Source: Brienomyrus brachyistius (lineage: Eukaryota > Chordata > Actinopteri > Osteoglossiformes > Mormyridae). Taken from it: a DNA stretch of 64,000 nucleotides. The notes beneath the pieces are model-generated. The model ran no database searches, was not told the origin of the DNA, and worked only from the letters and a program-made list of their open reading frames with translations. This document shows positions 1 to 45,190 of this stretch, piece after piece. A program made the position numbers and the translations under genes. Positions within the stretch are counted from its first letter, which is position 1; each line of letters opens with the position of its first letter. The DNA is taken from NCBI RefSeq assembly GCF_023856365.1, contig NW_026042414.1, positions 248,001 through 312,000 of the forward strand, written 5' to 3'.

Positions 1-622
1 AAGGCAGCTCAGACACAAATTGAAGACAGTTCTTCACCCCCCTTTATACCCAAAAAGGCCCTCCCCACCAAGGTGTTGTGTGTAGGTGTTGTGAGTGAAT
101 TTACATATAAAGAGTGACCCCCTGGAGTGTGAGGATCCTGAGACGGGGACAGGACAGAACAGGGTAGAGACTTTTATGATCATTGTAATTAAATTCTTAT
201 CACCTTATCTTATCCTTATCACCCTAGTGGTGCCAACTGGAACCCCCATTCTCTCCCTGGCTTCCCCCATGATCATAAATTCCTAACATTGTCTGCATTC
301 AAATGATCAACCAAGAACCTTGGGACATTTTTACCACTTTTCCTTACAAAGGGAAGCCCGGTCCTGACCTCGAGGTGTCAGCCTCTCAGTCGAACTCGGC
401 CAACTTCGAAAAAGGAACTCCCCTCGCAGTGTCTTTTATTGAGGTACACAAACAGGATATGCAACTGACATTGAACATTGTTTGTCACCATATATGGGGT
501 GGAAATATTCAAGCGACAGTTCTTGAGACGTGTTATTGCTCAATTAAGATCAAGCTGCGGCAGGGTGTTGTTTCCAAGCGTCTAGCAAAATGATAATAAA
601 AAAAGTACATATTTCTCTAACA
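1..622 (-). mobile_element. LTR, left-arm copy, cut by the window edge
   Basis: Read on the minus strand this is the first 622 bp of the 828-bp LTR that is complete at 43773-44600. It begins TGTTAGAG at 622 and still contains the TATA-type promoter, but the polyadenylation signal and 3' end lie outside the window. It sits in the same L2 LINE sequence as its right-hand copy. It differs from that copy by one substitution (position 325). Confidence 0.85.
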
Positions 623-1190
623 AGATACTCCAATGATTTTCTCACCTGTCATCACTATCTGTTGTAGGGACTTGCGATCTGAGGCGACATAGTTCCCAAA
701 GCAGACTGTGATGCAGCTGCTCAGGGTGCTTTCAACAGTTCCCCAATAGAGTGTGAGGATGGGAGATGGGCTTTTCTGAGCTTCCGTGGAGAGTAGAGGT
801 GCTGCTGTGCTTTCCTTACTATGGAGCTGATGTTGAAGGACCTGGTGAGATTCTCCGCCAGATGGACAACAAGGAATCTGGTACTCTCTACGATCTCCAC
901 AGATGAGCCATCGATGTGCAGCAGAGAGTGGTCACTCTGTGCTTTGTGTTCTTCTAAAGTCAACAACCATTTCTTTGGTCAACATTCAGAGACAGGTTGT
1001 TGGCTCTGCAGCAGTCCGATAGTCATCACACTTCCTCTTTGTATGCTGAGTCACCGTTTTTATTGACGAGACCCACAGTCTTGTCATCAGCCTGATGTTG
1101 ATGATGTGATTCGAAATGTGCATTGCTGCTCAGTTGTGAGTCATCGGAGTTAACAGCAGTGGGCTGAGCATAAAGTCCTGGGTTCCTGCT
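623..1190 (-). pseudogene. L2-type LINE reverse transcriptase fragment, left arm
   Basis: Minus-strand translation gives the thumb/C-terminal part of an L2-type LINE reverse transcriptase, with phrases such as LHIDGSSVEIVEST and SIVRKAQQHLYSPRKLRKAH that are typical of fish L2 elements. Frameshifts and stops break it. It is the mirror of 43205-43772. The LTR at 1-622 interrupts it, and its far end abuts the proline-rich repeat starting near 1191. Confidence 0.75.
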
Positions 1191-1657
1191 ACAGCGTCTG
1201 AGCAGCCGCCTTCGTCGCCCGTAGCTCCTGCGCAGCCCGAGCAGCCGCCTCCGCTGCCCCCTGCGGCCCTAGAACCCGAGGCGCTCCCTCTGCCTCAAAT
1301 GACTGTGCCCCCTGGGGCTCTTGTTCCTGGCCCCACTCCTGTCCCTGACCCAGCTCCAGACTTTCCTGCCCTAGTCCCCGAGGAGGTCCCGGACAGTCCG
1401 ACCACCGTGTGTGCCACGCCCCCTGATTATCCACGTGTGCTTCCCTGATCGTACCCAGCTGTGTCCGATTATTTTCAATCAGTCCTGTCTATTTGAGTCC
1501 ATGTCTTACTAGAGTTCAGTGTCCGTCATTGAAGTCCGTCTGCGTGAGATGTTTCCTGCACCCCGTGTTCCTAATAAATCCCTGTATTTCCCCGTATCCT
1601 GCCTGCCTTGCCTGTTTCCTGCCCGTCCGCCGCTCCCGTTAAACGGCGATCGTGACA
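1191..1657 (+). mobile_element. Proline-rich/LTR-like repeat, short copy, left arm
   Basis: The first ~220 bp are GC-rich and read as a proline/alanine-rich tail on the plus strand. From 1410 (TGTGCCACG) to 1657 (CGTGACA) there is a 248-bp block with TG...CA ends, a TATTTGAG element and AATAAA at 1573-1578, which looks like a small LTR. The same proline-rich plus TGTGCCACGCCCCCTGATTA arrangement recurs at 20147-21391, so this is a family. I infer the 3' end of a gypsy-type element, but no integrase is present here to prove it. It lies inside the L2 LINE. Confidence 0.55.
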
Positions 1658-2281
1658 CAAGGCACACGCACATCAACAAGTACCAATGCAGCAAATACAG
1701 ATGAACAATTTAGGAGGAATACTAGTCAAAGGAAGGAAGAAAAGCAGCCCACCCTATCTCATGGTCACGGACACAAACATCAGGGAGTGTTATGAAGAAG
1801 ACACCACACTTAGCACCATTGGTTTTACGCAGTGAATTACACCAGAGAGAGTTTTTACATTCTAGCTGTGTTACATAACATTCCTCAGCCTTCAGGTTTT
1901 TTCCACACAATGCAGGACACGCAGGGGTGCCAAACAAAACAGCGGAACTGCAGTGTAGCCAATTATTTGTTTCAGTAGTTTTAAGAAAACTAGAACATAA
2001 AATGTTTGTTTTACTTAGGTAAAAGTCCAGTTGAAACAGACTTTATTTTTAAAAAGTTAGATTGGCTTTAAGTGATGAAACATGTTACTTGTGTTAATAT
2101 TGCTTAATGAAGTGTAGGTGACATAGAAGCATGCAGTTTGATGTTTGGGGGCTGTAGTTTTTAATGGGACTATTTGAATATGGAGTACTAGTGTTGTACT
2201 TTTTAAGGGTACAGCACACGAAAAAAATACAGAGTATTAAAAGTGCCTCTCTTTAAAGGAACTGAGTTATCTTAGTGTATT
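1658..2281. other. No gene seen
   Basis: Mostly AT-rich sequence with short unconvincing ORFs on both strands and no recognisable element. The mirror segment is 42115-42737. Confidence 0.5.
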
Positions 2282-2786
2282 TTACATCACATACACTCTC
2301 GGTCCGCTGGGGGAGTCCATCCCGCTGTAGTTGGAGAATGCTGCCATCAGTCGCTCGGTGTAGCACTCGCAGGATTTACCAGGCTCCTGTTTAAACTGAT
2401 GCATCATGCCCCAGTCCATGCGCAGGAGGACCAGTCTCTGAAGGGCTGTCGCATGGTGAGGTCTGTTCTGCCTGGGATCCAGCAGGTCACTGGCAATGTC
2501 CTTCAACTCCTTCATCTACAGTGTCAGATGAGCAAACCTCATCTCCCCCTTGAGGATTTGGACAAACCAACATAGGGGCAAGAATTTCTGCTACCTCGTC
2601 CTGCTGCCTGAGTGTTTCGCCACGGCACTTCATCACCGAGAAGGAGGTAGAGTCGGGTGCTGAATGGTTATGATCCTCGTCTGCAGGGGGGAGAGGGGAA
2701 GGGGCAGGGGAACCACTTGCTACTCCTCCCTCGGCGGCATAAGGAGGAAGCTGCTGTTTGGGCAGCAATGCTTGGGCAGGAGCCAC
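2282..2786 (-). pseudogene. gag-like fragment of a retroelement, left arm
   Basis: Two overlapping minus-strand ORFs in different frames (2487-2786, then 2282-2515) together resemble a retroelement Gag: an acidic, proline-rich stretch followed by a helical region containing LKDIASDLLDP and YTERLMAAFSNYSGMD. The frame change shows it is broken. The right-arm copy lacks 6 bp near left position 2366, which removes two residues without another frameshift. No pol or LTR adjoins it, so the parent element is unknown. Confidence 0.4.
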
Positions 2787-3346
2787 ACAGTTTATTTCTG
2801 GGTATCTAATTAGCGGACACCATTAGGTCCCTTCAGGGGCTCCACAGACAAACTCATTGACATAATAGAATTGTCACAGAAAAATTCTTTGTCACATTCT
2901 CAGTCGACATAGACTGTGTGCTGTTTACATATTTTTGGCACAAACGAAATCTCATATGCATATTGACATATCTTTGGCACAAGTGGACCTCCATCACTTT
3001 AAAGAGGGTAAACTCTGGTCAGGAAATTTACGACGTCAGAATAAACTGATTTTTAACAGAAGTAACTGACATGCCCTAATAAGGAAATGCATACAATCAG
3101 AATACAATATCTGTGGTTTTTAACAGTGGTAACAATCTGATAATGAAAGGAATCAGATCAACATTTCTATAGCATGTAACAGAGCTTGCTCCCCTCCAGA
3201 ACTCATTGTTCCAGTAGTTATCTGAAATCATCTGCAGGAGCTATTCTTTTATTTGTATATTAAGCGTAATTATTCATGAATATTATTGATGATGTTTATT
3301 TGTTCAATGTTTTTATTTATTCGTATTTATTGTTTATAATATAATG

Positions 3347-3347
<1 letters not shown>
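2787..3347. other. No gene seen
   Basis: AT-rich sequence without a recognisable gene or element; it ends in the (AT)n tract at 3348. Mirror: 41055-41615. Confidence 0.5.

Positions 3348-3397
<50 letters not shown>
3348..3397. repeat. (AT)n microsatellite, left arm
   Basis: About 25 AT units directly before a SINE. The right-arm copy is about 8 bp longer, one of the few length differences between the arms. Confidence 0.95.
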
Positions 3398-3400
<3 letters not shown>

Positions 3401-3408
3401 TTGTAATA

Positions 3409-3770
3409 GGGGTGGCATGGTGGTGCAGTGGTTAGCACTGTTGCCTCACACCTCTGGGACCTGGGTTCGAGTCTCCGCCTGGGTCACATGTGTGTGGAGT
3501 TTGCATGTTCTCCCCGTGTCGTCGTGGGGTTTCCTCCGGGTACTCCGGTTTCCCCCCACAGTCCAAAAACATGCTGAGGCTAATTGGAATCACTGAATTG
3601 CCCATAGGTGTGCATGTGTGAGTGAATGGTGTGTGAGTGTGCCCTGCGATGGGCTGGCCCCCCATCCTGGGTTGTTCCCTGCCTCGTGCCCATTGCTTCC
3701 GGGATAGGCTCCGGACCCCCCGCGACCCAGTAGGATAAGCGGTTTGGAAAATGGATGGATGGATGGATGG
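3409..3770 (+). mobile_element. tRNA-like SINE with (GGAT)n tail, left arm
   Basis: The element starts GGGGTGGCATGGTGGTGCAG and carries RNA polymerase III-like boxes: an A box around GTGCAGTGGTTAGCAC and a B box in GGGTTCGAGTCTCC. It ends in (GGAT)n. Perfect 14-bp target duplications ATAGTATTGTAATA flank it at 3395-3408 and 3771-3784, so it arrived by target-primed reverse transcription. Relatives lie near 11040, 45973, 48424, 50077 and 60862. Confidence 0.85.
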
Positions 3771-3784
3771 ATAGTATTGTAATA

Positions 3785-4320
3785 CTTGAAACGAGAGGTA
3801 CTGCCTGCCTTAGTGATCTTTACTATTGTGTAAGTGTATTCCCACCTGTAGGGGGCAGCAATGGTTGTTATTAGAGGTGCTGAGATTACGCGGCTCAGGG
3901 CTGAAGGTGCAAAGTGAAACAGTCATTGACCGTATTTGCCGTGTGTGATGGTGTCTGCATATCGACCCTTTCGAGCCAAACAAACCAGTTCAAAGTACTG
4001 TGCGTTAATATATCATATGAATAAATCCACTCAAGAACTAAACTCAATATCGTATCCTCATCATTCAACGCGTCCGACTTTTCCACCTCTTACCACAAGG
4101 CAGTGGATTACATGGGGAAATTACAAACAAGGAGAATTTAATCTGTTTTTCCTCTACATTGTCGTTATTCAGAATATTACAGACTATGAACAAAAACGGA
4201 CAATGTAAGAAAATAAAAAAATGTGTATGAAAGCTAGAGTATTTTTGCAGTGGTGAACACTAGCTGGTTTATGTACTAGCTCACACTCAAGAAACAGCAT
4301 AAATGCTACTCATACACAGT
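3785..4320. other. No gene seen
   Basis: Short ORFs occur on both strands (for example 3936-4208 plus and 3895-4086 minus), but none has a recognisable domain, a start context or splice support. Mirror: 40082-40617. Confidence 0.45.
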
Positions 4321-4545
4321 TGGGGGGCAGGGGTCAGTCCTTGTGCCTGTAATGAGAAGGTCACCAGTTGAAACTAACCCAGCCACAGCACGTCTGTGGG
4401 TCCTTGAGCAAGGCCCTTAACCCCCAGCTCCCTGGGCGCCCCAACAGGCAGCTGCACTTCGCGGACAATTTACTCCACAAAGAGTAAGTTGAGGGAGACA
4501 TAAAAAACAATTTCCCCACAGGGATTAATAAAGTCCATCCATCTA
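4321..4545 (+). mobile_element. V-SINE-like element, left arm
   Basis: The conserved core CCTTGAGCAAGGCCCTTAAC followed by CCCCAGCTCCCTGGGCGCC is typical of fish tRNA-derived SINEs of the V-SINE sort. The tRNA-like head is degenerate and the tail runs into GGGATTAATAAAGTCC. A better preserved relative is at 49788-50046. Confidence 0.7.
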
Positions 4546-5431
4546 TGGAATATTATTTAGCACTATCTAACGTAGAATATAAGAATTATGATTTTATAAA
4601 AAGTATGCCAAATATCCATGATATAATCATTACAATGTAAACATTGTAATGTAATCAACACAATGGAACCAACTGAGTATGTATTTGCACCTTTTGTTAG
4701 TCTAAGTTTCTGTTAGCTACTTTATGTTAGTCATGAATCTATGAATATTCACTTTTATTAGCGTATATTTCATCATTATGTAAAAGGACAAATATATTAT
4801 CAACCTTTTAGTGAGACAATGTGTAAACGGCTGAAAATACCAAGGTTTACTACTGAAGGAAGGGATTCACCTGAGTTCACCAGAAGTTCATGGCTGAGTA
4901 TTTTTAAAAAACCAAGTGGAGCTGCTCGCGCCACTATTATGTTCAACCGAGAGACCAAACGGTAAAAGAAATGACTATCAAACTTATCACCTAGAGGTGA
5001 ACATAAATCTATACAAATATCACCTGCATGCACATTACTTCTTTTACAATAACCAACTCCTGATCCATACTGTTAGTCGTGAAAAAAATAACTATTGTGT
5101 ACATAGAGGCCCTGTGTAAAAAGATAACTGCCAAGGAAAAGATCAAAAACATTTATTTCAAGGATTCAAAGTTTTTATGGTCATGTACAGTGTACAGTGC
5201 AGTTCTTATTTGATTAACTTGAATGTCTTCACAGACAAGACGATTAAACAAATAAAGCAGCGCAACATTACAGTAACTAACAACAAACAAACAAAGTTCA
5301 CGAGTACTATTACAGTATTCATATCATTTATTTAAATTTAATTTTACCAAGTAAATTAATTGAAAAGCAGTTACCACTGCTTTACCTGCTTCTCGGGAGA
5401 AATAGCAGATATACAAACGTCATGTATGTAA
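4546..5431. other. AT-rich spacer with a LINE 3'-end-like scrap
   Basis: No gene is apparent. At about 5150-5295 there is a segment (TTTATTTCAAGGATTCAAAG, then TATGGTCATGTACAGTGTAC) like the antisense 3' end of fish LINEs. The remainder is unassigned. Mirror: 38971-39856. Confidence 0.35.
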
Positions 5432-5833
5432 CTAAAATCTTAAGCCAATAAGGGCAAAGTTGTGTCGTAATGCCCACGCTCGCCTCTCCTGCTCCTGTTT
5501 CTCTCCCTCTTTTCTCCACTTTCCCCGTTGTAACACCCTCGCTTTCACTAGCTCGCGTCCTGCCTCGTCTTTCAGGCCGCTATGCTCCTTTACCTTACGC
5601 CATAAAAGTGCTCCTAATGATTGCCTATCCTCCGGTTTGTATCCTGCACATTTCACTGCAATCCCCATACGCTTCCACGCATCTGCCGTCTCTCTCTCTC
5701 GGCCCTTTTCCTGAGCTGTTTTTCCCACTGCTATTTTTAACAGCTGTATCTGTTCACACAGAGGCTTCCACCGCCCGCGCACTGGTGGACCCCAGCCCCC
5801 GTCATCCAATTCTCTATCAAATTCGTGATCCAT
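5432..5833 (-). CDS. Small ORF downstream of the ERV leader (gag-position), left arm
   Basis: A 133-codon minus-strand ORF, identical in frame to the right-arm copy at 38569-38970. It is hydrophilic, rich in Lys/Arg/Glu in its second half, with a helical charged C-terminus. It lies about 770 bp downstream of the tRNA-Pro primer site, where Gag normally begins, but I recognise no Gag domain. The retroviral sequence seems to stop soon after it, so it is a truncated gag or accessory ORF. Confidence 0.45.
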   Translation of the reverse strand: MDHEFDRELDDGGWGPPVRGRWKPLCEQIQLLKIAVGKTAQEKGRERETADAWKRMGIAVKCAGYKPEDRQSLGALLWRKVKEHSGLKDEAGRELVKARVLQRGKWRKEGEKQEQERRAWALRHNFALIGLRF

Positions 5834-6605
5834 GTTTTAGCTTATCTGACCTACACTTCTCCTGATCCAACAACCCCTGTGCCTCAGGGGATGGATTTAT
5901 CCACCCACACTTAGTACACCTCTTAGTTGTCTCTGAGTGCCCCACTAACAAACACCACCAAAACCTAAACCCACACTCACACACAATCACCGAACCACGC
6001 AAAACAGTAAATAGTAAATGGTAAACCCACTCACACTGGAATAGTGAATAGTAAACACGCACTTACACACGCGAAATAGTAAATAGCGCTGTGTACACTT
6101 TTTGGTACCTTGGGACCCCACGTCTCGGGACTTTTTAGCCCGATGCTTTGAGTACTCTAATCTCGGGACTTTAACCCAATACTTTGAGGACTTTCACCTC
6201 GGGACTTCAACCCGTTTTAAGGAGGATGAACCTTACTCCTCCGACCAATTTAGCTGTTCGGGGGTCCTGAATTTCCCGGGACGCTCAATCCCAGCTGTCC
6301 TACTGCTCATCAGCAGTAGGTGGGTTGCCAAACCAAGGACACGACAGTGGACTTAAATCCTCCGCCAATAGGTTCTACTACGGGGTCCCGTACCCTCTGT
6401 TCACAGGCCGTCAGAGCTACGCACAACAGGCCCTCGCCACAATATTGGTCGACAGATCCTGAGACACTTCCAGCCACTTTATTTAGCAATCGCCAATATG
6501 CAGAATTCGATAAAACAGGCTCTGCTCACCTAATTGCTGGGCGCCCGTGGCTCTCTGCGTCCCCAAGACCTCGTCTCTGGTTCCAATCCAAACAACCTTC
6601 TCCTC

Positions 6606-6623
6606 ATCCCGGACGAGCCCCCA
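6606..6623 (-). promoter_or_regulatory. Retroviral primer binding site, tRNA-Pro type, left arm
   Basis: The minus strand reads TGGGGGCTCGTCCGGGAT, the 18-nt site for tRNA-Pro priming used by murine leukaemia-type retroviruses. It lies three bases after the LTR end. Confidence 0.9.
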
Positions 6624-6626
6624 AAT

Positions 6627-7118
6627 TGTTGGAGTTAGACTCCACCGAGTCCGTTGATGAGGAAAAGATGCATTCGTGAGGCAAAGGATGGTTGTAAGTC
6701 AGCTCTCTTTATTTGTTGTACAGATCGATCCGGGAGCCACTCTCAGATGCACAAAAGTACACACCAAGGGAAGCTCAGCTCCCTGTTGTCTGTGTCTAAC
6801 TTTTATACCCCGTTTAGGGCGTCTACTGTTCTTGTTGGTATCTTTCCAGTTGACGTAACATATAACTATTGTTTGGACATTGCTGGCGTTAGTCCCCACA
6901 CCCGTTCCCTTTGATCTTATCTTGTTATGTTGCAATTTAGCAGCGTCAGCGACCCCCTCCCTTGTCATGTCCCCGCAGGTCAAGCGTAAGCTTAATGTCA
7001 CCACGAGCCTGTCAATGTACCTTCTGCTTTCCGGAATTTACTTACACAACGAGGAGGGCTGGAGCCCCCCTTCTCTTCCTGCCTGTGTTCCAGTTTGTTC
7101 CCCTTTCTCAGTGTGACA
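6627..7118 (-). mobile_element. Endogenous retrovirus 5' LTR, left arm
   Basis: A 492-bp LTR on the minus strand running from TGTCACAC (7118) to CCAACA (6627), with a TATAAAA promoter and an AATAAA signal. The primer site at 6606-6623 shows this is a 5' LTR. No 3' LTR, pol or env of the same insertion is seen in the arm, so the provirus is truncated. It is the mirror of 37284-37775. Confidence 0.9.
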
Positions 7119-9639
7119 AAGTTTAGCACGCAACCTAGCCCCCCTTCATTCGCCATTTATATTTTCCGCCGGGCACCCGAAATGCTGCCACACAAAAGAT
7201 TTAAAAGTGTCTGGGGTATCTACTATAGTAATTTAGTCAGATGCCAACATATTCACAGCAGCTAATTTGCAGCGCATTCGTGAAACCGCTTTTCGCTCCA
7301 ACGAGAAACTCATGTTGTAATATCGCGAGATCTCGTGACACGCGTTTCACTCCCACTTCTTAGTAACAGTCATGATTTGATAAAGTGACAACCTGCGTAA
7401 TAATTGGTAATACATAGAGTTTGCTATTGTTCAGGCTAGCAGACTGTTATGGCTTGAGGTTAATGGTGCCTGTTACTTGTGAATTTTCACATTTGCAGGG
7501 ATCTTCTGCCTCGTGAACGTGAAACGGATAATTATGCTAAAAGAAGAAAAAAGCAGAACTGCAATGTGTGTAAGGCTGGTGCTGATTTTTCAGTCTGAAC
7601 ACAGTAAAATTTATACAAATTACCTGTATTCAAACTTGTATTCTTTATATAGTTTGGTTAATTACTATTTAAAAGTTTTATCTGCGCTCCATTGTATAAC
7701 TTGTACTGGAGATTTGTATGTACTTTTTGATTGGAAATGGTTAGTTGTATATACATTGAATATTTTTATGATTAATTTCTTTGTTTATTTAATTTGGCAA
7801 CAGATTTGCACTTTTAGAAGTATTGCTGTTCATTTTTGTGAAAGTTGTTACTAAAAAAAACAAAAGAAGCAGACTTGTGTAAATCCTATATTGGCCGTGT
7901 ATTCTTCCTGTAGCGTAGTGACAGCTTTTTGTACGGAAGCCGTGAACGGCTGTGCTTGCAAATATATTTTCTTCTGAATAATTAGAAGGATAAGCATATT
8001 TTGTCGCCGCCGCGAGATAGTCATGCCATACACAGCTCTGCTCGTTTTTGTACTGTTACTGTGTTACTTAATTTGCGCATCCATGAATTTAACGTTGACA
8101 TTAAGTCAACATTGACATTGACAACGTTGACATTAAGTGTTGCACCTATCTAGTGTTTTACTGTGAAGGGCATGTTATATCTCGTCTCTAAGTCGCACTA
8201 TGGTCCAGGGGAATGCTATGTCATATCAGAACATGTGTCGATTATGTGGCAATATAAATATTTTATATTACTGTCAGTTTTAGTTTCAGAAATCCATCAT
8301 TTGAGAAAAAAGGCCAGTCACGACAAATATATATGGAATATAACAACAGAGTTTAGGCAGCTGTATTTGTTTAAGTGTAAAGATGCACATAGAAACATGC
8401 ATGAGCTCATCTGAGAATAAACTGAATGCAATGAAGATTTGTGACTCCTGCTGGAAAATGCGAATAGTGGCAGGGTCTTCAAGTAGTACATTTGTCTGAG
8501 AGTCAATTAATATTAGGAAAGGCACAGTTTTTTTTCAATGGCGCTAATTATCAAGAAGGAAATGGAGTACCCCAGCACCTGGTTTACGGGCACTGGAAGC
8601 TCCAGTATCAGTCAGACTTTCATGTAAGTATATGTGTGTTTAATGACTTAGCAGTTGGTTAAAAAGTAGACTTGTGCATGTTTCATCTTTACCAGGGGCA
8701 GAGGGGAAACTCAATAAATAGCCTTCTCTCACACTTCCAGACCTGCAGAACTGAGCATGTCCCCTGGTTTTGTGCATATGTCTGTAGGCTTTGAGTTTTT
8801 CCTATGGGGGCTTCAATTTCCTCCCAGAGTACAAATACGTGCAGATCAGTTGCATTGGGGAGTCCATACTGTGATGCTGAGTGGGTGTAGGAGGAGATTG
8901 AGAGATGAAACTCCGGATGATTTACTCCCTCGGCTAACTAACCAGAACAGGATCGTACCAATACCAAAATGATAAGTTTATAAATGTTTTTCACTACCCT
9001 GATTCATTCAGTTATTTATGTTTGTTAATTCCACCTCCCAAGCAAATACATAAATAAACAAACAAACAAATATTCAGGGGGAATGTGTCATAGGTGATAG
9101 AATCAGTGGATGAATCTAAAGAAAAAAAGTTATGATTTCTTTCTCTCCAAAACACAATGCAAAAAACTCTTAAGTTAGGTAAGACATTGAAATTTTATGA
9201 CAGTAGCATGATGCAGAGGAACAACAGAAGGAAAAATCTAACTAAACCTGAGTCAACTAGGACTAATTACACTAAATTAAGTGGAACACACAAAATACCT
9301 AAAACCACTTAATAAACAAGCAAGAAATATTACATTTGATTAACTATACTGATGCCTGAGGGAAGTTCTTGTGCTTAATGCAGCAAGTATGTACAGCTGC
9401 AGAGACACTACACATAGTGCAAATAAATTAAAAAGTATACAGTACACACACTGATTCCTGAAAAATCAAAATACCATGGAATACTAATGAAATACTTATC
9501 AGGATGATGATGACGATGATGATGATAATAATAGAAATAATAATGAATTAGTTTAGGGTATTATGCAATTGACATGTACAATTAAAAAAGAAATTGCACC
9601 AGACATTTCCTGTGGCAAAGAAGGGTTGCTTTGTGCCAC
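7119..9639. other. 2.5 kb without a recognised gene
   Basis: AT-rich DNA with short ORFs only. There is a small repeat of TTGACATTAAGT around 8090-8140 and a (GAT)n-rich stretch at about 9503-9545. The 113-codon ORF at 7513-7854 is AT-driven, lacks a recognisable domain and has no splice context. Mirror: 34763-37283. Confidence 0.45.
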
Positions 9640-9870
9640 GTTACTCAAGTCAATTCACTTTATTTTGTATAGTGCATTTTCACAGCCTTACATAGTCTCA
9701 AAGCACTTTACTTTGTCCCTGCCCAATTGTCCCAGTGAGCAATATCAAGCCTGAAAAATTATAAAGCCACATTGGCAAGGATAAACTCAGTCATAGTAAG
9801 AAACCTTTGGAGGAACCAGAGTGAAAGGGGGAGCCCATCCTCCACAGGGCAGAAGTCAGGTTAACAAAGT
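9640..9870. repeat. Fish interspersed repeat, left arm
   Basis: Contains CACTTTATTTTGTATAGTGC and CAAAGCACTTTACTTTGTCC, then AGAAACCTTTGGAGGAACCA and AAAGGGGGAGCCCATCCTCC. The latter block recurs at 17285-17440 (left arm) and its mirror. I recognise the wording as a common fish interspersed repeat but cannot name the family. A G/C-rich degenerate minisatellite follows at about 9945-10050. Confidence 0.5.
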
Positions 9871-10240
9871 CCTGATCTATATGGTTCAATTAGTTAAGTC
9901 CGGATGTAAATACAGAATAACTGGCAGCAGGGCACACAGGAAAGACGTCACAGGCAGGAGGGCAGGCAGGAGGGTGGCACAGGCAGGACGTAATGGGCAG
10001 GAGGGCGGGCAGGCAGGGCAGCACAGGCAGAAGGGCTGGCGGGTAGCCAGAACTGTTTTGCCACTGCAGTCTGTTTTACAGTTTCATCTGCATTTGTTCC
10101 CACAAGGAATAACAACAGCTAATTTATGAACATGCTGCTTTTCAGAAAAGAAGTTTAATTTCTAGGAACATGACCAGTGCAAACATTTAGTGTTGACGGT
10201 TCTTTGTAAAATGGATGTTCTGTACTTTTATTGATCTGTC

Positions 10241-10290
10241 CGTCCATCCATCCATCCATCCATCCATCCATCCATCCATCCATCCATCCA
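10241..10290. repeat. (CATC)n microsatellite, left arm
   Basis: A run of CATC units. The right-arm copy near 34126-34160 is about 16 bp shorter, which shifts the arm register. Confidence 0.9.
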
Positions 10291-10370
10291 TTTTCTAACT
10301 ACTTCTGATGAAGTTCCGGGTTATGAGGTATCCTGAAGCCCAGGCAATATGGGACACACACACACACATA

Positions 10371-10632
10371 GGGTATACCTATCTTTATGGGGCCCGCTCA
10401 TTCACTTCTATGGGATAAATGCTAACGCTAACTATGACAAGCTTAACCCCCACCCTGCCCTAACCATAACCATAAGTAACCCAGCAAAATACAAGAGGTT
10501 TTGCATTTTTAGTTTTTCCATAGCAGTCACAGATTTTTATAAAATAGAGTTTTCCTGGTTTTCGGTTTCGTGGTCCCCATAAGGGAAAAAAAACAGGTAT
10601 TTATCACGTTATGGGGTAGGATAGGTATACCC
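10371..10632. mobile_element. MITE with 13-bp perfect terminal inverted repeats, left arm
   Basis: A 262-bp element starts GGGTATACCTATC (10371-10383) and ends GATAGGTATACCC (10620-10632). It has no coding capacity and sits between two CA-rich tracts. It is a non-autonomous DNA transposon; the superfamily is not assignable because the flanking CA repeats hide the target duplication. Confidence 0.8.
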
Positions 10633-10633
10633 G

Positions 10634-10665
<32 letters not shown>

Positions 10666-11039
10666 TGCACACAAATGGATAGATCAACACAGTTACTATG
10701 GATGTCGATCCTGCAATAATGAGACAGAACTATCATACTTAATAGGATCATATCCCTAGTTCTACATATGCATAATTATATTTTAAAAAGATCCCACGCA
10801 CCCAGCACATGAGATGTTTGAACTTCTGCTCTCTGGTAAACGTTACCGCAGTATGCATTGCAGAACAACCAGATTTAATAAGACCTTCTACCCCCAAAGC
10901 CATCAGAATACTAAATGCTAATGAACATAAGTTTATGTGAAACCCTACTCTCTCTTCCTCTCTGTGCACTTTATTACCACAACTGGTATTAAGTTTACTT
11001 TTTATTTATACAGTATAGTGCAATAATATAATCACGAAT

Positions 11040-20110: not shown

Positions 20111-20119
20111 GTTGTGTGA

Positions 20120-33746: not shown

Positions 33747-33784
<38 letters not shown>

Positions 33785-33785
33785 C

Positions 33786-34531: not shown

Positions 34532-34762
34532 ACTTTGTTAACCTGACTTCTGCCCTGTGGAGGATGGGCTCCCCCTTTCACTCTGGTTCCTCCAAAGGTT
34601 TCTTACTATGACTGAGTTTATCCTTGCCAATGTGGCTTTATAATTTTTCAGGCTTGATATTGCTCACTGGGACAATTGGGCAGGGACAAAGTAAAGTGCT
34701 TTGAGACTATGTAAGGCTGTGAAAATGCACTATACAAAATAAAGTGAATTGACTTGAGTAAC
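34532..34762. repeat. Fish interspersed repeat, right arm
   Basis: Mirror of 9640-9870. Confidence 0.5.
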
Positions 34763-37283
34763 GTGGCACAAAGCAACCCTTCTTTGCCACAGGAAATGTC
34801 TGGTGCAATTTCTTTTTTAATTGTACATGTCAATTGCATAATACCCTAAACTAATTCATTATTATTTCTATTATTATCATCATCATCGTCATCATCATCC
34901 TGATAAGTATTTCATTAGTATTCCATGGTATTTTGATTTTTCAGGAATCAGTGTGTGTACTGTATACTTTTTAATTTATTTGCACTATGTGTAGTGTCTC
35001 TGCAGCTGTACATACTTGCTGCATTAAGCACAAGAACTTCCCTCAGGCATCAGTATAGTTAATCAAATGTAATATTTCTTGCTTGTTTATTAAGTGGTTT
35101 TAGGTATTTTGTGTGTTCCACTTAATTTAGTGTAATTAGTCCTAGTTGACTCAGGTTTAGTTAGATTTTTCCTTCTGTTGTTCCTCTGCATCATGCTACT
35201 GTCATAAAATTTCAATGTCTTACCTAACTTAAGAGTTTTTTGCATTGTGTTTTGGAGAGAAAGAAATCACAACTTTTTTTCTTTAGATTCATCCACTGAT
35301 TCTATCACCTATGACACATTCCCCCTGAATATTTGTTTGTTTGTTTATTTATGTATTTGCTTGGGAGGTGGAATTAACAAACATAAATAACTGAATGAAT
35401 CAGGGTAGTGAAAAACATTTATAAACTTATCATTTTGGTATTGGTACGATCCTGTTCTGGTTAGTTAGCCGAGGGAGTAAATCATCCGGAGTTTCATCTC
35501 TCAATCTCCTCCTACACCCACTCAGCATCACAGTATGGACTCCCCAATGCAACTGATCTGCACGTATTTGTACTCTGGGAGGAAATTGAAGCCCCCATAG
35601 GAAAAACTCAAAGCCTACAGACATATGCACAAAACCAGGGGACATGCTCAGTTCTGCAGGTCTGGAAGTGTGAGAGAAGGCTATTTATTGAGTTTCCCCT
35701 CTGCCCCTGGTAAAGATGAAACATGCACAAGTCTACTTTTTAACCAACTGCTAAGTCATTAAACACACATATACTTACATGAAAGTCTGACTGATACTGG
35801 AGCTTCCAGTGCCCGTAAACCAGGTGCTGGGGTACTCCATTTCCTTCTTGATAATTAGCGCCATTGAAAAAAAACTGTGCCTTTCCTAATATTAATTGAC
35901 TCTCAGACAAATGTACTACTTGAAGACCCTGCCACTATTCGCATTTTCCAGCAGGAGTCACAAATCTTCATTGCATTCAGTTTATTCTCAGATGAGCTCA
36001 TGCATGTTTCTATGTGCATCTTTACACTTAAACAAATACAGCTGCCTAAACTCTGTTGTTATATTCCATATATATTTGTCGTGACTGGCCTTTTTTCTCA
36101 AATGATGGATTTCTGAAACTAAAACTGACAGTAATATAAAATATTTATATTGCCACATAATCGACACATGTTCTGATATGACATAGCATTCCCCTGGACC
36201 ATAGTGCGACTTAGAGACGAGATATAACATGCCCTTCACAGTAAAACACTAGATAGGTGCAACACTTAATGTCAACGTTGTCAATGTCAATGTTGACTTA
36301 ATGTCAACGTTAAATTCATGGATGCGCAAATTAAGTAACACAGTAACAGTACAAAAACGAGCAGAGCTGTGTATGGCATGACTATCTCGCGGCGGCGACA
36401 AAATATGCTTATCCTTCTAATTATTCAGAAGAAAATATATTTGCAAGCACAGCCGTTCACGGCTTCCGTACAAAAAGCTGTCACTACGCTACAGGAAGAA
36501 TACACGGCCAATATAGGATTTACACAAGTCTGCTTCTTTTGTTTTTTTTAGTAACAACTTTCACAAAAATGAACAGCAATACTTCTAAAAGTGCAAATCT
36601 GTTGCCAAATTAAATAAACAAAGAAATTAATCATAAAAATATTCAATGTATATACAACTAACCATTTCCAATCAAAAAGTACATACAAATCTCCAGTACA
36701 AGTTATACAATGGAGCGCAGATAAAACTTTTAAATAGTAATTAACCAAACTATATAAAGAATACAAGTTTGAATACAGGTAATTTGTATAAATTTTACTG
36801 TGTTCAGACTGAAAAATCAGCACCAGCCTTACACACATTGCAGTTCTGCTTTTTTCTTCTTTTAGCATAATTATCCGTTTCACGTTCACGAGGCAGAAGA
36901 TCCCTGCAAATGTGAAAATTCACAAGTAACAGGCACCATTAACCTCAAGCCATAACAGTCTGCTAGCCTGAACAATAGCAAACTCTATGTATTACCAATT
37001 ATTACGCAGGTTGTCACTTTATCAAATCATGACTGTTACTAAGAAGTGGGAGTGAAACGCGTGTCACGAGATCTCGCGATATTACAACATGAGTTTCTCG
37101 TTGGAGCGAAAAGCGGTTTCACGAATGCGCTGCAAATTAGCTGCTGTGAATATGTTGGCATCTGACTAAATTACTATAGTAGATACCCCAGACACTTTTA
37201 AATCTTTTGTGTGGCAGCATTTCGGGTGCCCGGCGGAAAATATAAATGGCGAATGAAGGGGGGCTAGGTTGCGTGCTAAACTT

Positions 37284-37775
37284 TGTCACACTGAGAAAGG
37301 GGAACAAACTGGAACACAGGCAGGAAGAGAAGGGGGGCTCCAGCCCTCCTCGTTGTGTAAGTAAATTCCGGAAAGCAGAAGGTACATTGACAGGCTCGTG
37401 GTGACATTAAGCTTACGCTTGACCTGCGGGGACATGACAAGGGAGGGGGTCGCTGACGCTGCTAAATTGCAACATAACAAGATAAGATCAAAGGGAACGG
37501 GTGTGGGGACTAACGCCAGCAATGTCCAAACAATAGTTATATGTTACGTCAACTGGAAAGATACCAACAAGAACAGTAGACGCCCTAAACGGGGTATAAA
37601 AGTTAGACACAGACAACAGGGAGCTGAGCTTCCCTTGGTGTGTACTTTTGTGCATCTGAGAGTGGCTCCCGGATCGATCTGTACAACAAATAAAGAGAGC
37701 TGACTTACAACCATCCTTTGCCTCACGAATGCATCTTTTCCTCATCAACGGACTCGGTGGAGTCTAACTCCAACA
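37284..37775 (+). mobile_element. Endogenous retrovirus 5' LTR, right arm
   Basis: 492 bp from TGTCACAC to CTCCAACA. TATAAAA at 37595-37601 and AATAAA at 37689-37694 place the U3-R-U5 order on the plus strand. The primer site follows three bases later. No matching 3' LTR lies in the window, so this is a truncated provirus. Confidence 0.9.
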
Positions 37776-37778
37776 ATT

Positions 37779-37796
37779 TGGGGGCTCGTCCGGGAT
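37779..37796 (+). promoter_or_regulatory. Retroviral primer binding site, tRNA-Pro type, right arm
   Basis: TGGGGGCTCGTCCGGGAT, an exact 18-nt tRNA-Pro complement of the murine-leukaemia type. The following 770-bp leader contains a possible splice donor (TTAG/GTGAGC near 37870) and several TTTACTATT-type repeats at 38320-38400. Confidence 0.92.
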
Positions 37797-38568
37797 GAGG
37801 AGAAGGTTGTTTGGATTGGAACCAGAGACGAGGTCTTGGGGACGCAGAGAGCCACGGGCGCCCAGCAATTAGGTGAGCAGAGCCTGTTTTATCGAATTCT
37901 GCATATTGGCGATTGCTAAATAAAGTGGCTGGAAGTGTCTCAGGATCTGTCGACCAATATTGTGGCGAGGGCCTGTTGTGCGTAGCTCTGACGGCCTGTG
38001 AACAGAGGGTACAGGACCCCGTAGTAGAACCTATTGGCGGAGGATTTAAGTCCACTGTCGTGTCCTTGGTTTGGCAACCCACCTACTGCTGATGAGCAGT
38101 AGGACAGCTGGGATTGAGCGTCCCGGGAAATTCAGGACCCCCGAACAGCTAAATTGGTCGGAGGAGTAAGGTTCATCCTCCTTAAAACGGGTTGAAGTCC
38201 CGAGGTGAAAGTCCTCAAAGTATTGGGTTAAAGTCCCGAGATTAGAGTACTCAAAGCATCGGGCTAAAAAGTCCCGAGACGTGGGGTCCCAAGGTACCAA
38301 AAAGTGTACACAGCGCTATTTACTATTTCGCGTGTGTAAGTGCGTGTTTACTATTCACTATTCCAGTGTGAGTGGGTTTACCATTTACTATTTACTGTTT
38401 TGCGTGGTTCGGTGATTGTGTGTGAGTGTGGGTTTAGGTTTTGGTGGTGTTTGTTAGTGGGGCACTCAGAGACAACTAAGAGGTGTACTAAGTGTGGGTG
38501 GATAAATCCATCCCCTGAGGCACAGGGGTTGTTGGATCAGGAGAAGTGTAGGTCAGATAAGCTAAAAC

Positions 38569-38970
38569 ATGGATCACGAATTTGATAGAGAATTGGATGA
38601 CGGGGGCTGGGGTCCACCAGTGCGCGGGCGGTGGAAGCCTCTGTGTGAACAGATACAGCTGTTAAAAATAGCAGTGGGAAAAACAGCTCAGGAAAAGGGC
38701 CGAGAGAGAGAGACGGCAGATGCGTGGAAGCGTATGGGGATTGCAGTGAAATGTGCAGGATACAAACCGGAGGATAGGCAATCATTAGGAGCACTTTTAT
38801 GGCGTAAGGTAAAGGAGCATAGCGGCCTGAAAGACGAGGCAGGACGCGAGCTAGTGAAAGCGAGGGTGTTACAACGGGGAAAGTGGAGAAAAGAGGGAGA
38901 GAAACAGGAGCAGGAGAGGCGAGCGTGGGCATTACGACACAACTTTGCCCTTATTGGCTTAAGATTTTAG
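38569..38970 (+). CDS. Small ORF downstream of the ERV leader (gag-position), right arm
   Basis: 133 codons from an ATG in a fair context (AACATGG) to TAG. It starts with an acidic stretch (MDHEFDRELDDGGWG) and becomes strongly charged, with an R/K/E-rich C-terminal helix. Its position after primer site and leader is that of gag, but no matrix, capsid or zinc-knuckle motif follows; sequence after 38970 is unrelated AT-rich DNA. Likely a 5'-truncated gag or unusual accessory reading frame. Confidence 0.45.
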   Translation: MDHEFDRELDDGGWGPPVRGRWKPLCEQIQLLKIAVGKTAQEKGRERETADAWKRMGIAVKCAGYKPEDRQSLGALLWRKVKEHSGLKDEAGRELVKARVLQRGKWRKEGEKQEQERRAWALRHNFALIGLRF

Positions 38971-39856
38971 TTACATACATGACGTTTGTATATCTGCTAT
39001 TTCTCCCGAGAAGCAGGTAAAGCAGTGGTAACTGCTTTTCAATTAATTTACTTGGTAAAATTAAATTTAAATAAATGATATGAATACTGTAATAGTACTC
39101 GTGAACTTTGTTTGTTTGTTGTTAGTTACTGTAATGTTGCGCTGCTTTATTTGTTTAATCGTCTTGTCTGTGAAGACATTCAAGTTAATCAAATAAGAAC
39201 TGCACTGTACACTGTACATGACCATAAAAACTTTGAATCCTTGAAATAAATGTTTTTGATCTTTTCCTTGGCAGTTATCTTTTTACACAGGGCCTCTATG
39301 TACACAATAGTTATTTTTTTCACAACTAACAGTATGGATCAGGAGTTGGTTATTGTAAAAGAAGTAATGTGCATGCAGGTGATATTTGTATAGATTTATG
39401 TTCACCTCTAGGTGATAAGTTTGATAGTCATTTCTTTTACCGTTTGGTCTCTCGGTTGAACATAATAGTGGCGCGAGCAGCTCCACTTGGTTTTTTAAAA
39501 ATACTCAGCCATGAACTTCTGGTGAACTCAGGTGAATCCCTTCCTTCAGTAGTAAACCTTGGTATTTTCAGCCGTTTACACATTGTCTCACTAAAAGGTT
39601 GATAATATATTTGTCCTTTTACATAATGATGAAATATACGCTAATAAAAGTGAATATTCATAGATTCATGACTAACATAAAGTAGCTAACAGAAACTTAG
39701 ACTAACAAAAGGTGCAAATACATACTCAGTTGGTTCCATTGTGTTGATTACATTACAATGTTTACATTGTAATGATTATATCATGGATATTTGGCATACT
39801 TTTTATAAAATCATAATTCTTATATTCTACGTTAGATAGTGCTAAATAATATTCCA

Positions 39857-40081
39857 TAGATGGATGGACTTTATTAATCCCTGTGGGGAAATTGTTTTTT
39901 ATGTCTCCCTCAACTTACTCTTTGTGGAGTAAATTGTCCGCGAAGTGCAGCTGCCTGTTGGGGCGCCCAGGGAGCTGGGGGTTAAGGGCCTTGCTCAAGG
40001 ACCCACAGACGTGCTGTGGCTGGGTTAGTTTCAACTGGTGACCTTCTCATTACAGGCACAAGGACTGACCCCTGCCCCCCA
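39857..40081 (-). mobile_element. V-SINE-like element, right arm
   Basis: Mirror of 4321-4545. Confidence 0.7.
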
Positions 40082-40631
40082 ACTGTGTATGAGTAGCATT
40101 TATGCTGTTTCTTGAGTGTGAGCTAGTACATAAACCAGCTAGTGTTCACCACTGCAAAAATACTCTAGCTTTCATACACATTTTTTTATTTTCTTACATT
40201 GTCCGTTTTTGTTCATAGTCTGTAATATTCTGAATAACGACAATGTAGAGGAAAAACAGATTAAATTCTCCTTGTTTGTAATTTCCCCATGTAATCCACT
40301 GCCTTGTGGTAAGAGGTGGAAAAGTCGGACGCGTTGAATGATGAGGATACGATATTGAGTTTAGTTCTTGAGTGGATTTATTCATATGATATATTAACGC
40401 ACAGTACTTTGAACTGGTTTGTTTGGCTCGAAAGGGTCGATATGCAGACACCATCACACACGGCAAATACGGTCAATGACTGTTTCACTTTGCACCTTCA
40501 GCCCTGAGCCGCGTAATCTCAGCACCTCTAATAACAACCATTGCTGCCCCCTACAGGTGGGAATACACTTACACAATAGTAAAGATCACTAAGGCAGGCA
40601 GTACCTCTCGTTTCAAGTATTACAATACTAT

Positions 40632-40985
40632 CCATCCATCCATTTTCCAAACCGCTTATCCTACTGGGTCGCGGGGGGTCCGGAGCCTATCCCGGAAGCA
40701 ATGGGCACGAGGCAGGGAACAACCCAGGATGGGGGGCCAGCCCATCGCAGGGCACACTCACACACCATTCACTCACACATGCACACCTATGGGCAATTCA
40801 GTGATTCCAATTAGCCTCAGCATGTTTTTGGACTGTGGGGGGAAACCGGAGTACCCGGAGGAAACCCCACGACGACACGGGGAGAACATGCAAACTCCAC
40901 ACACATGTGACCCAGGCGGAGACTCGAACCCAGGTCCCAGAGGTGTGAGGCAACAGTGCTAACCACTGCACCACCATGCCACCCC
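40632..40985 (-). mobile_element. tRNA-like SINE, right arm
   Basis: Mirror of 3409-3770, with a shorter CCAT tail (8 bp less) and the same 14-bp target duplications (40618-40631 and 40986-40999). Confidence 0.85.
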
Positions 40986-40993
40986 TATTACAA

Positions 40994-40997
<4 letters not shown>

Positions 40998-41054
<57 letters not shown>
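40998..41054. repeat. (AT)n microsatellite, right arm
   Basis: Mirror of 3348-3397, about 8 bp longer. Confidence 0.95.
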
Positions 41055-41055
<1 letters not shown>

Positions 41056-41615
41056 CATTATATTATAAACAATAAATACGAATAAATAAAAACATTGAAC
41101 AAATAAACATCATCAATAATATTCATGAATAATTACGCTTAATATACAAATAAAAGAATAGCTCCTGCAGATGATTTCAGATAACTACTGGAACAATGAG
41201 TTCTGGAGGGGAGCAAGCTCTGTTACATGCTATAGAAATGTTGATCTGATTCCTTTCATTATCAGATTGTTACCACTGTTAAAAACCACAGATATTGTAT
41301 TCTGATTGTATGCATTTCCTTATTAGGGCATGTCAGTTACTTCTGTTAAAAATCAGTTTATTCTGACGTCGTAAATTTCCTGACCAGAGTTTACCCTCTT
41401 TAAAGTGATGGAGGTCCACTTGTGCCAAAGATATGTCAATATGCATATGAGATTTCGTTTGTGCCAAAAATATGTAAACAGCACACAGTCTATGTCGACT
41501 GAGAATGTGACAAAGAATTTTTCTGTGACAATTCTATTATGTCAATGAGTTTGTCTGTGGAGCCCCTGAAGGGACCTAATGGTGTCCGCTAATTAGATAC
41601 CCAGAAATAAACTGT

Positions 41616-42114
41616 GTGGCTCCTGCCCAAGCATTGCTGCCCAAACAGCAGCTTCCTCCTTATGCCGCCGAGGGAGGAGTAGCAAGTGGTTCCCCTGCCC
41701 CTTCCCCTCTCCCCCCTGCAGACGAGGATCATAACCATTCAGCACCCGACTCTACCTCCTTCTCGGTGATGAAGTGCCGTGGCGAAACACTCAGGCAGCA
41801 GGACGAGGTAGCAGAAATTCTTGCCCCTATGTTGGTTTGTCCAAATCCTCAAGGGGGAGATGAGGTTTGCTCATCTGACACTGTAGATGAAGGAGTTGAA
41901 GGACATTGCCAGTGACCTGCTGGATCCCAGGCAGAACAGACCTCACCATGCGACAGCCCTTCAGAGACTGGTCCTCCTGCGCATGGACTGGGGCATGATG
42001 CATCAGTTTAAACAGGAGCCTGGTAAATCCTGCTACACCGAGCGACTGATGGCAGCATTCTCCAACTACAGCGGGATGGACTCCCCCAGCGGACCGAGAG
42101 TGTATGTGATGTAA
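41616..42114 (+). pseudogene. gag-like fragment, right arm
   Basis: Mirror of 2282-2786: ORF 41616-41915 then 41887-42114 in another frame. Six bases are missing relative to the left arm near 42030. Confidence 0.4.
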
Positions 42115-42737
42115 AATACATAAGATAACTCAGTTCCTTTAAAGAGAGGCACTTTTAATACTCTGTATTTTTTTCGTGTGCTGTACCCTTAAAAAGTACA
42201 ACACTAGTACTCCATATTCAAATAGTCCCATTAAAAACTACAGCCCCCAAACATCAAACTGCATGCTTCTATGTCACCTACACTTCATTAAGCAATATTA
42301 ACACAAGTAACATGTTTCATCACTTAAAGCCAATCTAACTTTTTAAAAATAAAGTCTGTTTCAACTGGACTTTTACCTAAGTAAAACAAACATTTTATGT
42401 TCTAGTTTTCTTAAAACTACTGAAACAAATAATTGGCTACACTGCAGTTCCGCTGTTTTGTTTGGCACCCCTGCGTGTCCTGCATTGTGTGGAAAAAACC
42501 TGAAGGCTGAGGAATGTTATGTAACACAGCTAGAATGTAAAAACTCTCTCTGGTGTAATTCACTGCGTAAAACCAATGGTGCTAAGTGTGGTGTCTTCTT
42601 CATAACACTCCCTGATGTTTGTGTCCGTGACCATGAGATAGGGTGGGCTGCTTTTCTTCCTTCCTTTGACTAGTATTCCTCCTAAATTGTTCATCTGTAT
42701 TTGCTGCATTGGTACTTGTTGATGTGCGTGTGCCTTG

Positions 42738-43204
42738 TGTCACGATCGCCGTTTAACGGGAGCGGCGGACGGGCAGGAAACAGGCAAGGCAGGCAGGATA
42801 CGGGGAAATACGGGGATTTATTAGGAACACGGGGTGCAGGAAACATCTCACGCAGACGGACTTCAATGACGGACACTGAACTCTAGTAAGACATGGACTC
42901 AAATAGACAGGACTGATTGAAAATAATCGGACACAGCTGGGTACGATCAGGGAAGCACACGTGGATAATCAGGGGGCGTGGCACACACGGTGGTCGGACT
43001 GTCCGGGACCTCCTCGGGGACTAGGGCAGGAAAGTCTGGAGCTGGGTCAGGGACAGGAGTGGGGCCAGGAACAAGAGCCCCAGGGGGCACAGTCATTTGA
43101 GGCAGAGGGAGCGCCTCGGGTTCTAGGGCCGCAGGGGGCAGCGGAGGCGGCTGCTCGGGCTGCGCAGGAGCTACGGGCGACGAAGGCGGCTGCTCAGACG
43201 CTGT
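42738..43204 (-). mobile_element. Proline-rich/LTR-like repeat, short copy, right arm
   Basis: Mirror of 1191-1657. On the plus strand it begins TGTCACGATCGCC at 42738 and joins the L2 LINE near 43205. Confidence 0.55.
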
Positions 43205-45190
43205 AGCAGGAACCCAGGACTTTATGCTCAGCCCACTGCTGTTAACTCCGATGACTCACAACTGAGCAGCAATGCACATTTCGAATCACATCATCAACAT
43301 CAGGCTGATGACAAGACTGTGGGTCTCGTCAATAAAAACGGTGACTCAGCATACAAAGAGGAAGTGTGATGACTATCGGACTGCTGCAGAGCCAACAACC
43401 TGTCTCTGAATGTTGACCAAAGAAATGGTTGTTGACTTTAGAAGAACACAAAGCACAGAGTGACCACTCTCTGCTGCACATCGATGGCTCATCTGTGGAG
43501 ATCGTAGAGAGTACCGGATTCCTTGTTGTCCATCTGGCGGAGAATCTCACCAGGTCCTTCAACATCAGCTCCATAGTAAGGAAAGCACAGCAGCACCTCT
43601 ACTCTCCACGGAAGCTCAGAAAAGCCCATCTCCCATCCTCACACTCTATTGGGGAACTGTTGAAAGCACCCTGAGCAGCTGCATCACAGTCTGCTTTGGG
43701 AACTATGTCGCCTCAGATCGCAAGTCCCTACAACAGATAGTGATGACAGGTGAGAAAATCATTGGAGTATCTTGTTAGAGAAATATGTACTTTTTTTATT
43801 ATCATTTTGCTAGACGCTTGGAAACAACACCCTGCCGCAGCTTGATCTTAATTGAGCAATAACACGTCTCAAGAACTGTCGCTTGAATATTTCCACCCCA
43901 TATATGGTGACAAACAATGTTCAATGTCAGTTGCATATCCTGTTTGTGTACCTCAATAAAAGACACTGCGAGGGGAGTTCCTTTTTCGAAGTTGGCCGAG
44001 TTCGACTGAGAGGCTGACACCTCGAGGTCAGGACCGGGCTTCCCTTTGTAAGGAAAAGTGGTAAAAATGCCCCAAGGTTCTTGGTTGATCATTTGAATGC
44101 AGACAATGTTAGGAATTTATGATCATGGGGGAAGCCAGGGAGAGAATGGGGGTTCCAGTTGGCACCACTAGGGTGATAAGGATAAGATAAGGTGATAAGA
44201 ATTTAATTACAATGATCATAAAAGTCTCTACCCTGTTCTGTCCTGTCCCCGTCTCAGGATCCTCACACTCCAGGGGGTCACTCTTTATATGTAAATTCAC
44301 TCACAACACCTACACACAACACCTTGGTGGGGAGGGCCTTTTTGGGTATAAAGGGGGGTGAAGAACTGTCTTCAATTTGTGTCTGAGCTGCCTTTCAGTA
44401 CCCGGTGTGTCTCTACACTGTATTACATTGTATTATTTTTGCTGTTCAATAAACCATCATTTTGCTGAAACTGCGGAGACTCTGCAAGTGGATTCCCTAC
44501 ACCTTGCAGCAAGTAAAACGTCATCACAGCTGTCTGTGTTGTTCTGTGTTCAGAGACTGGTTTGTTTCCAGCGCATCTTCAGAAGAAGATAACCCTAACA
44601 TATCTCTCCCCTCCATCACGGATATTCACACCACACACTGCATCCGCAAAGCCACCACCATTGTGGATGACCCCACCCACCCCTCACATTATCGTTTCAC
44701 CCTCCTGCCTTCTGGAAATAGGTCCCGGAGCATTCGGGCCTTTACAGCCAGACTCAAACAGCTTTATCCCCCATGCCGTCAGACTACTGAACTCTCAGGG
44801 ACTAATCTGATACCACACACACATACACTCATTAACACACTTTATTATTTAACTACTATTTTTTTATCTTATTGTAGCCATGTTTACAGTTACTTTTATT
44901 TATTTTTATTGCTACCTCATTGCACAACCAAACTGCACCTTATCAGTATTGGGTTTACTGTGCTGTTTGTGCTCGTTGGTGTCAGTTGTCCTCTCTTTTT
45001 GCACTGTCCTGCAATGTTTGCACAGTTTTTGCTCATTATGCACCATACAGTATGTTGCTAGGTTGGTATGTGTTAGTCTTGTGTTAATTTAAGTAGCACC
45101 TTGGTCCGAGGGAAACAGTTTCTTTTGTAACTGTACTATACTCAACTGTGTAAAGTTAAAAATAACATTAAAGACCTACTTGACTTGACT
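43205..45190 (+). pseudogene. L2-type LINE 3' half, split by a solo LTR
   Basis: 43205-43772 gives the end of the reverse transcriptase (HIDGSSVEIVES, SIVRKAQQHLYS) and 44606-44810 continues it with SLPSITDIHTTHCIRKATTI, DDPTHPSHYRFTLLPSGNR and RAFTARLKQLYPP, the standard L2-type C-terminus. The 3' untranslated region runs to about 45190 and ends in ACTTGACTTGACTT. The split is an LTR insertion at 43773-44600. Stops and frameshifts make it dead. The part from 44395 onward is outside the visible palindrome. Confidence 0.85.
43773..44600 (+). mobile_element. Solo LTR (828 bp) with 5-bp target duplications
   Basis: Starts TGTTAGAG and ends CCCTAACA (short inverted ends TGTTAG/CTAACA). TATCT is duplicated at 43768-43772 and 44601-44605, which proves an integrase-type insertion into the L2 LINE. 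TATAAA at 44347-44352 and AATAAA at 44448-44453 give plus orientation. No internal region is present, so the proviral body was lost by LTR-LTR recombination. Family not identified. Confidence 0.9.

Follow-up and report, generated by a model that had tools for sequence, protein, structure and literature searches.

Large palindromes on mammalian sex chromosomes have long arms that are more than 99.9% identical and carry genes in both arms. In yeast, fold-back inversions are established at hairpin stems of 4-15 bp, and their mirror-image arms meet at a short inverted repeat enclosing a small loop (PMC7467729; PMC10622511). The inverted triplications of origin-dependent inverted-repeat amplification (ODIRA) are described as starting from a template switch at an inverted repeat of about 5 nt, which leaves an unstable palindromic junction (PMC10766186). 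Head-to-head copies of one locus also arise as artefacts, through fold-back reads or falsely joined haplotypes (PMC12870357). We analysed a 64,000-nucleotide stretch of the genome of the mormyrid fish Brienomyrus brachyistius (assembly GCF_023856365.1, contig NW_026042414.1, positions 248,001 to 312,000), hereafter the window. It holds a palindrome that hinges on a 29-bp minisatellite and carries a cystatin-like gene in each arm, and which resembles all four of these systems in part. We put the probability that it is a genuine, recent inverted duplication in this mormyrid fish at roughly 48%.

The palindrome is truly present in the sequence. A self-BLAST of the window returned an inverted match of 1-21827 against 44394-22587 at 99.734% identity (15 mismatches, 43 gap bases), confirming the near-perfect palindrome of more than 44 kb described in an initial annotation made from the sequence alone. 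Without the hinge array, the left arm (1..21391, + strand) and the right arm (23023..44394, - strand) aligned end to end at 99.757% identity, with nine substitutions and six indels. That annotation had estimated by eye about eight substitutions and a small number of indels, chiefly in microsatellite length, between arms of about 21.4 kb, and the alignment bears this out. The arms are thus each other's reverse complement outward from the junction over 21.4 kb, as in a fold-back inversion, and chance is no serious explanation for the match. Substitution divergence was 0.042%, with one pair of substitutions only 2 bp apart. The indels total 43 gap bases; four are whole-unit changes in microsatellites (TA, 25 and 29 units; ATGG, 5 and 3; TCCA, 12 and 8; CA, 14 and 16) and the remaining two measure 6 bp and 1 bp. 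There is no N in the window.

The match begins at the first base of the window and the outermost 324 bases of the arms are identical, indicating that the palindrome is cut by the window. The arms therefore measure at least 21.4 kb plus the hinge array. Position 44394, proposed in the initial annotation as a boundary and a site for testing the structure, merely mirrors window base 1, so it is not the edge of the palindrome and no useful place for a test. The sequence beyond it (44395..64000) has its mirror, if any, outside the window, and the only sequences it has in common with the left arm, among the matches listed, are dispersed repeats no longer than 488 bp.

The two arms meet in the 29-bp minisatellite. 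Its forward part (21392..22592, + strand) consists of 41 units and a partial unit (41.4 copies by Tandem Repeats Finder, TRF) and is followed by an inverted part (22587..23022, - strand) of 15 units (15.0 copies by TRF), as a map of the units also showed. The 24-bp core of the unit occurred exactly 56 times, 41 forward and 15 inverted, and was not found elsewhere in the window with up to three mismatches allowed. The 29-bp unit had no exact match in a collection of viral contigs, which may omit records from the genome of the window itself. Two types of unit, differing by one base (T or C), make up the array. Read from the outside inward, the left side runs one T unit, eight C units, 32 T units and a partial C-type unit, and the right side one T unit followed by 14 C units. 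With 41 forward and 15 inverted units, a strictly symmetric hinge is ruled out. The whole hinge spans 1.6 kb, which should be short enough for a single long read.

The strand switch could be placed to the base. The two sides have 6 bp in common, TCAGAT (22587..22592), which belongs to an inverted repeat, TCAGAT/ATCTGA, carried by every 29-bp unit. Six bases would be shared in 14 of 841 possible junction phases and more than six in none. The junction of the palindrome thus lies at a short inverted repeat, and its 6-bp repeat and 5-nt loop fall within the stem and loop sizes reported for yeast fold-back inversions (PMC7467729; PMC10622511). DNA folding predicted a hairpin core at 22563..22605 with a 19-bp stem and the 5-nt loop TTGGC; the 46-nt core folded at -23.6 kcal/mol (z -12.9), whilst a 121-nt stretch around it folded differently, with 53 bp in the stem and 12 nt in the loop. 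A ten-unit stretch of the array formed more structure than 200 of 200 shuffled sequences (z -6.3).

Each arm carries an intact copy of the cystatin-like gene, in agreement with the initial annotation. Copy 1 lies at 15237..17229 on the + strand (coding exons 15237-15416, 15719-15823, 16442-16534 and 17119-17229) and copy 2 at 27185..29177 on the - strand (28998-29177, 28591-28695, 27880-27972 and 27185-27295). In each copy the four coding exons, all a multiple of three in length and flanked by AG/GT splice sites, join into one open frame of 162 amino acids, and all four are identical between the arms. Over the whole gene including introns (1,993 bp), 16837 and 16839 are the sole differences between the arms, and no difference occurs in the 500 bp upstream. 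The protein appears by eye to start with a signal peptide.

A protein search with this sequence gave six homologues at E up to 0.001. The best was isoform X7 of B. brachyistius LOC125725295 (87% identity, 100% of the query covered), and two more were other isoforms of the same locus. A Paramormyrops kingsleyae protein matched at full length with 60% identity, and two proteins named cystatin-like matched at 46% and 44% identity over 82% and 78% of the query. None of these matches is as close as would be expected for the same gene within one assembly. Homology to mormyrid proteins that carry the name cystatin-like at NCBI thus extends over the full length. A cystatin-type domain was not found in the protein by Pfam (no family at E up to 1), and the spliced sequence had no match in the PDB at E up to 1. 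A PDB search with exon 1 plus the frame upstream of it yielded a single match, 7ue2_A (RPB_PLP3_R6; E 4.3e-5), in which no stretch passed alone. The gene may resemble fish chemerin. The homologous proteins had no match in the window outside the two gene copies. The Brienomyrus protein forms differ from one another at several places and seem to represent a number of related gene units within a single contig, which makes local duplication plausible. Upstream of the start codon, 15128-15217 (mirror 29197-29286) matches the N-terminal extension of a Paramormyrops protein (P0004) at 97% identity, and the annotated extension may derive from such upstream sequence.

The differences between the arms resemble mutations. 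The nine substitutions comprised eight transitions and one transversion, and five of the eight transitions touched a CpG against an expectation of 20% (p 0.010). With CpG taken as the ancestral state, two of the derived changes fall in the left arm and three in the right. This excess is a germ-line mutation pattern, unlike read error, and indicates that the arms came from two different templates.

We also compared repeats shared between the arm and the flank, using matches of at least 120 bp and leaving out minisatellites and right-arm queries. In all nine pairs listed the copies were 82-92% alike, compared with 99.96% between the arms by substitutions. The arms therefore separated long after those repeats were inserted, or have been converted, which upholds the earlier suggestion that the inversion is younger than its repeats or that its arms are kept alike by gene conversion. 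High arm identity is expected equally from conversion and from youth, and the differences thin out toward the hinge.

A fold-back origin would account for the main features of the locus as follows. A break or stalled fork within the 29-bp minisatellite would leave a single strand, which could fold on the 6-bp inverted repeat of the unit itself, with 5 nt looped out between adjacent units. DNA synthesis back from the fold would then produce a mirror image of the arm and duplicate the cystatin-like gene. The centre would subsequently lose its symmetry, leaving 41 units against 15 and a run of 32 T-type units on one side only, and this loss would lower the instability of the palindrome. If the array was originally mostly of C type, a single C-to-T change expanded to 32 units on the left would suffice to break the symmetry. 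Meanwhile the arms would have gained about nine point mutations, or conversion would have kept them alike. A duplication is supported by the end-to-end arms, the switch at an inverted repeat intrinsic to the array and the folding of the array beyond shuffled sequences. The low divergence and the base-resolved junction slightly favour a true duplication over joined alleles.

A review describes a symmetric palindromic junction that became 25 times more stable in cell culture once its symmetry was lost, and reports that even short spacers stabilise palindromes (PMC8701086). A palindrome of more than 44 kb with almost no spacer might persist in a vertebrate germ line if its hairpin-forming minisatellite, through a one-sided expansion of 32 extra T-type units, acted as a self-stabilising hinge that let the fold-back inversion survive and duplicate a gene. 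We regard this specific proposal as doubtful, with the odds clearly against it.

Several observations weigh against a genuine fold-back duplication. The units beside the junction do not mirror each other exactly: unit types agree in only 2 of 15 positions counted from the hinge and 9 of 15 counted from the outside. If the same strand had been copied in one step, the unit types should be mirrored, so agreement in at most nine of 15 calls for an extra change or another template, and the non-mirroring could reflect later change. In this the locus differs from the yeast inversions, as its hinge lies within a minisatellite whose units are not mirrored by type; nor is any secondary rearrangement or distal loss visible in the window. 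The units beside the switch would still be able to pair, mismatched at one base in every 29. The loop is short as well. When Mre11 and Sae2 were functional, fold-back loops in yeast had a median of 35.5 nt; it was only where mre11 or sae2 was mutated that loops of about 5 nt prevailed (PMC7467729), so a 5-nt hinge loop is unlike the preference of normal cells. A symmetric, nearly spacer-free palindrome in mice was rearranged in about 35% of offspring (PMC8701086). The palindrome's true outer end, moreover, lies beyond the window.

The distribution of arm differences must be set beside these points. Differences became rarer toward the hinge: with the two-base pair treated as one event, the 14 events had a mean position of 6.1 kb in the 21.4-kb arm, and 12 of them lay in its outer half. 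The gradient had a p of 0.002 with all 14 events but of 0.03 with substitutions only. All four variable microsatellites sit in the outer half, so this evidence is weak. Together with the near-absence of a spacer, the scarcity of differences near the hinge favours joined alleles over a duplication.

That the palindrome is such an assembly artefact is nearly as probable as a genuine duplication. A chimeric or folded-back read, or tangling of the assembly graph, would have led to a head-to-head join of the two alleles of a single locus within the hairpin-prone minisatellite. The arms would then represent the maternal and the paternal allele, with a single copy of the gene at this locus on each haplotype. 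The arm differences resemble ordinary allelic mutations, with derived CpG changes in both arms and whole-unit microsatellite steps, and the unit patterns of the hinge differ in the manner of minisatellite alleles. The hinge lies in just the kind of hairpin-prone repeat where such a join might form, and the thinning of differences toward it looks as if one folded molecule had supplied the centre. The placement of the four microsatellites explains part of that gradient, however, and one two-base difference lies 4.6 kb from the array. A join would also require a molecule with an inverted junction and with differing unit types on its two sides.

A palindrome that reaches the edge of a contig is a common appearance of head-to-head joins, and an artefact would be more likely if window base 1 were the first base of its contig. 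Spurious duplicates have been suspected in the Brienomyrus assembly before, at kcna7a (PMC12188244). Fold-back reads are reported to make up 0.55-0.6% of nanopore genomic reads and can tangle assembly graphs, whilst they were virtually absent from one PacBio HiFi data set (PMC12870357).

The small number of differences argues against joined alleles. Heterozygosity was 0.96% in captive-bred Campylomormyrus compressirostris (PMC10029256), and at this value, which is that of another mormyrid, 205 differences would be expected between the arms rather than the nine substitutions seen in 21.4 kb. The divergence of the arms is about 23 times below that other mormyrid's heterozygosity. The probability of at most nine substitutions between alleles at 0.96% was 0.048 without recombination and far less with it. 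Inbreeding or a stretch of low diversity would allow so few allelic differences.

A single folded-back read, arising from a missed adapter or from reading a template and then its complement, could also have been carried into the contig. Such reads exist and form near-perfect palindromes (PMC12870357), but both arms would then be copies of one molecule, identical save for random errors. The CpG-touching transitions and the whole-unit changes in four microsatellites oppose this simplest form of artefact. The two sides of the hinge differ in their unit patterns in a way that copies of one molecule would not, and the switch falls at a 6-bp inverted repeat. We consider an origin in a single read highly improbable. 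Among the options raised in the initial annotation, a palindrome younger than its repeats, or converted, is supported, whilst the fold-back read is argued against by the CpG-type differences and the hinge units.

A sex-linked or ampliconic palindrome, held alike by gene conversion between its arms as on the mammalian X and Y, is more improbable still. The arms do exceed 99.9% identity by substitutions and contain a gene, but conversion and youth look alike here, and the palindrome lacks a large spacer, having none beyond the array itself. The initial annotation had raised a link with sex chromosomes, and nothing in the window supports one. In two cytogenetic studies, no distinguishable sex chromosomes were found in two mormyrid species (PMC8520028) or in both sexes of four mormyrid species (PMC7449985), and one of these studies mentions supposed heteromorphic sex chromosomes in a distant relative, the Asian arowana. 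An ODIRA triplication, finally, was rejected, as it predicts two junctions, three copies and repeats 40-80 nt apart (PMC10766186), in contrast to the one junction and two copies visible here and repeats only 5 or 12 nt apart.

If the palindrome is a genuine inverted duplication, it would offer a natural vertebrate example, resolved to the base, of an inverted duplication that arose at a short hairpin and whose centre has since been altered. According to one model of inverted copy-number variants, the palindromic junctions that form first are in most cases lost to rearrangement (PMC10766186). The duplication would also enlarge by one copy a gene family of which mormyrid electric fishes appear to have several members. 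Should the palindrome instead be an artefact, the hairpin-prone minisatellite would mark a site at which assembly can join alleles head to head and inflate gene counts.

Other features of the arms were also noted. A minisatellite with a 46-bp unit lies in the left arm (12172..12833, + strand, by TRF) and is mirrored at 31581-32242; its copy number is 14.4 in each arm, in contrast to the hinge array, whose two sides differ strongly. A short way outside the hinge array, G+C-rich DNA at 20144-21223 (mirror 23191-24270) contains an open frame of 360 amino acids rich in proline and serine. The end of this frame and a frame at 1140-1445 both contain VCATPPDYPRVLP, and the two stretches are 80% alike as DNA. 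A further open frame at 19137-19415 has spaced cysteines (FTCPDNQPCFIIEV...YFCSGC); a PDB search with it listed T-cell receptor chains (E 0.43-0.53) and a single further entry (E 1.3).

Pfam was run on 20 of the 174 open frames of at least 80 amino acids in the window, and two of the 20 had a match above the family cut-off. No match was found for the frame at 20144-21223, and the frame at 19137-19415 had no family above the cut-off and no homologue in the protein search. A protein search with the frame at 5435-5836 also found no homologue. The window contained no tRNA genes and no Rfam match at the gathering score.

Repeats link the arms with the right flank. Inverted retroelement-like copies at 14054-14541 in the arm and 57128-57615 in the flank are 85% alike, and their frames had no Pfam match. 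At least six copies of a dispersed repeat lie outside the right arm (3409-3779, 11036-11182, 45968-46127, 48433-48635, 50063-50432 and 60863-61208), 78-94% alike where pairs were listed; the copy at 3409-3779 lies at an ATGG microsatellite. LINE-like pieces in separate frames occupy 48838-53546 of the right flank. They include a coiled-coil frame, presumably ORF1-like, with Pfam matches below the cut-off; an endonuclease frame at 50469-51176 matching Exo_endo_phos above it; and reverse-transcriptase frames matching RVT_1, one above the cut-off (52254-52580) and one below.

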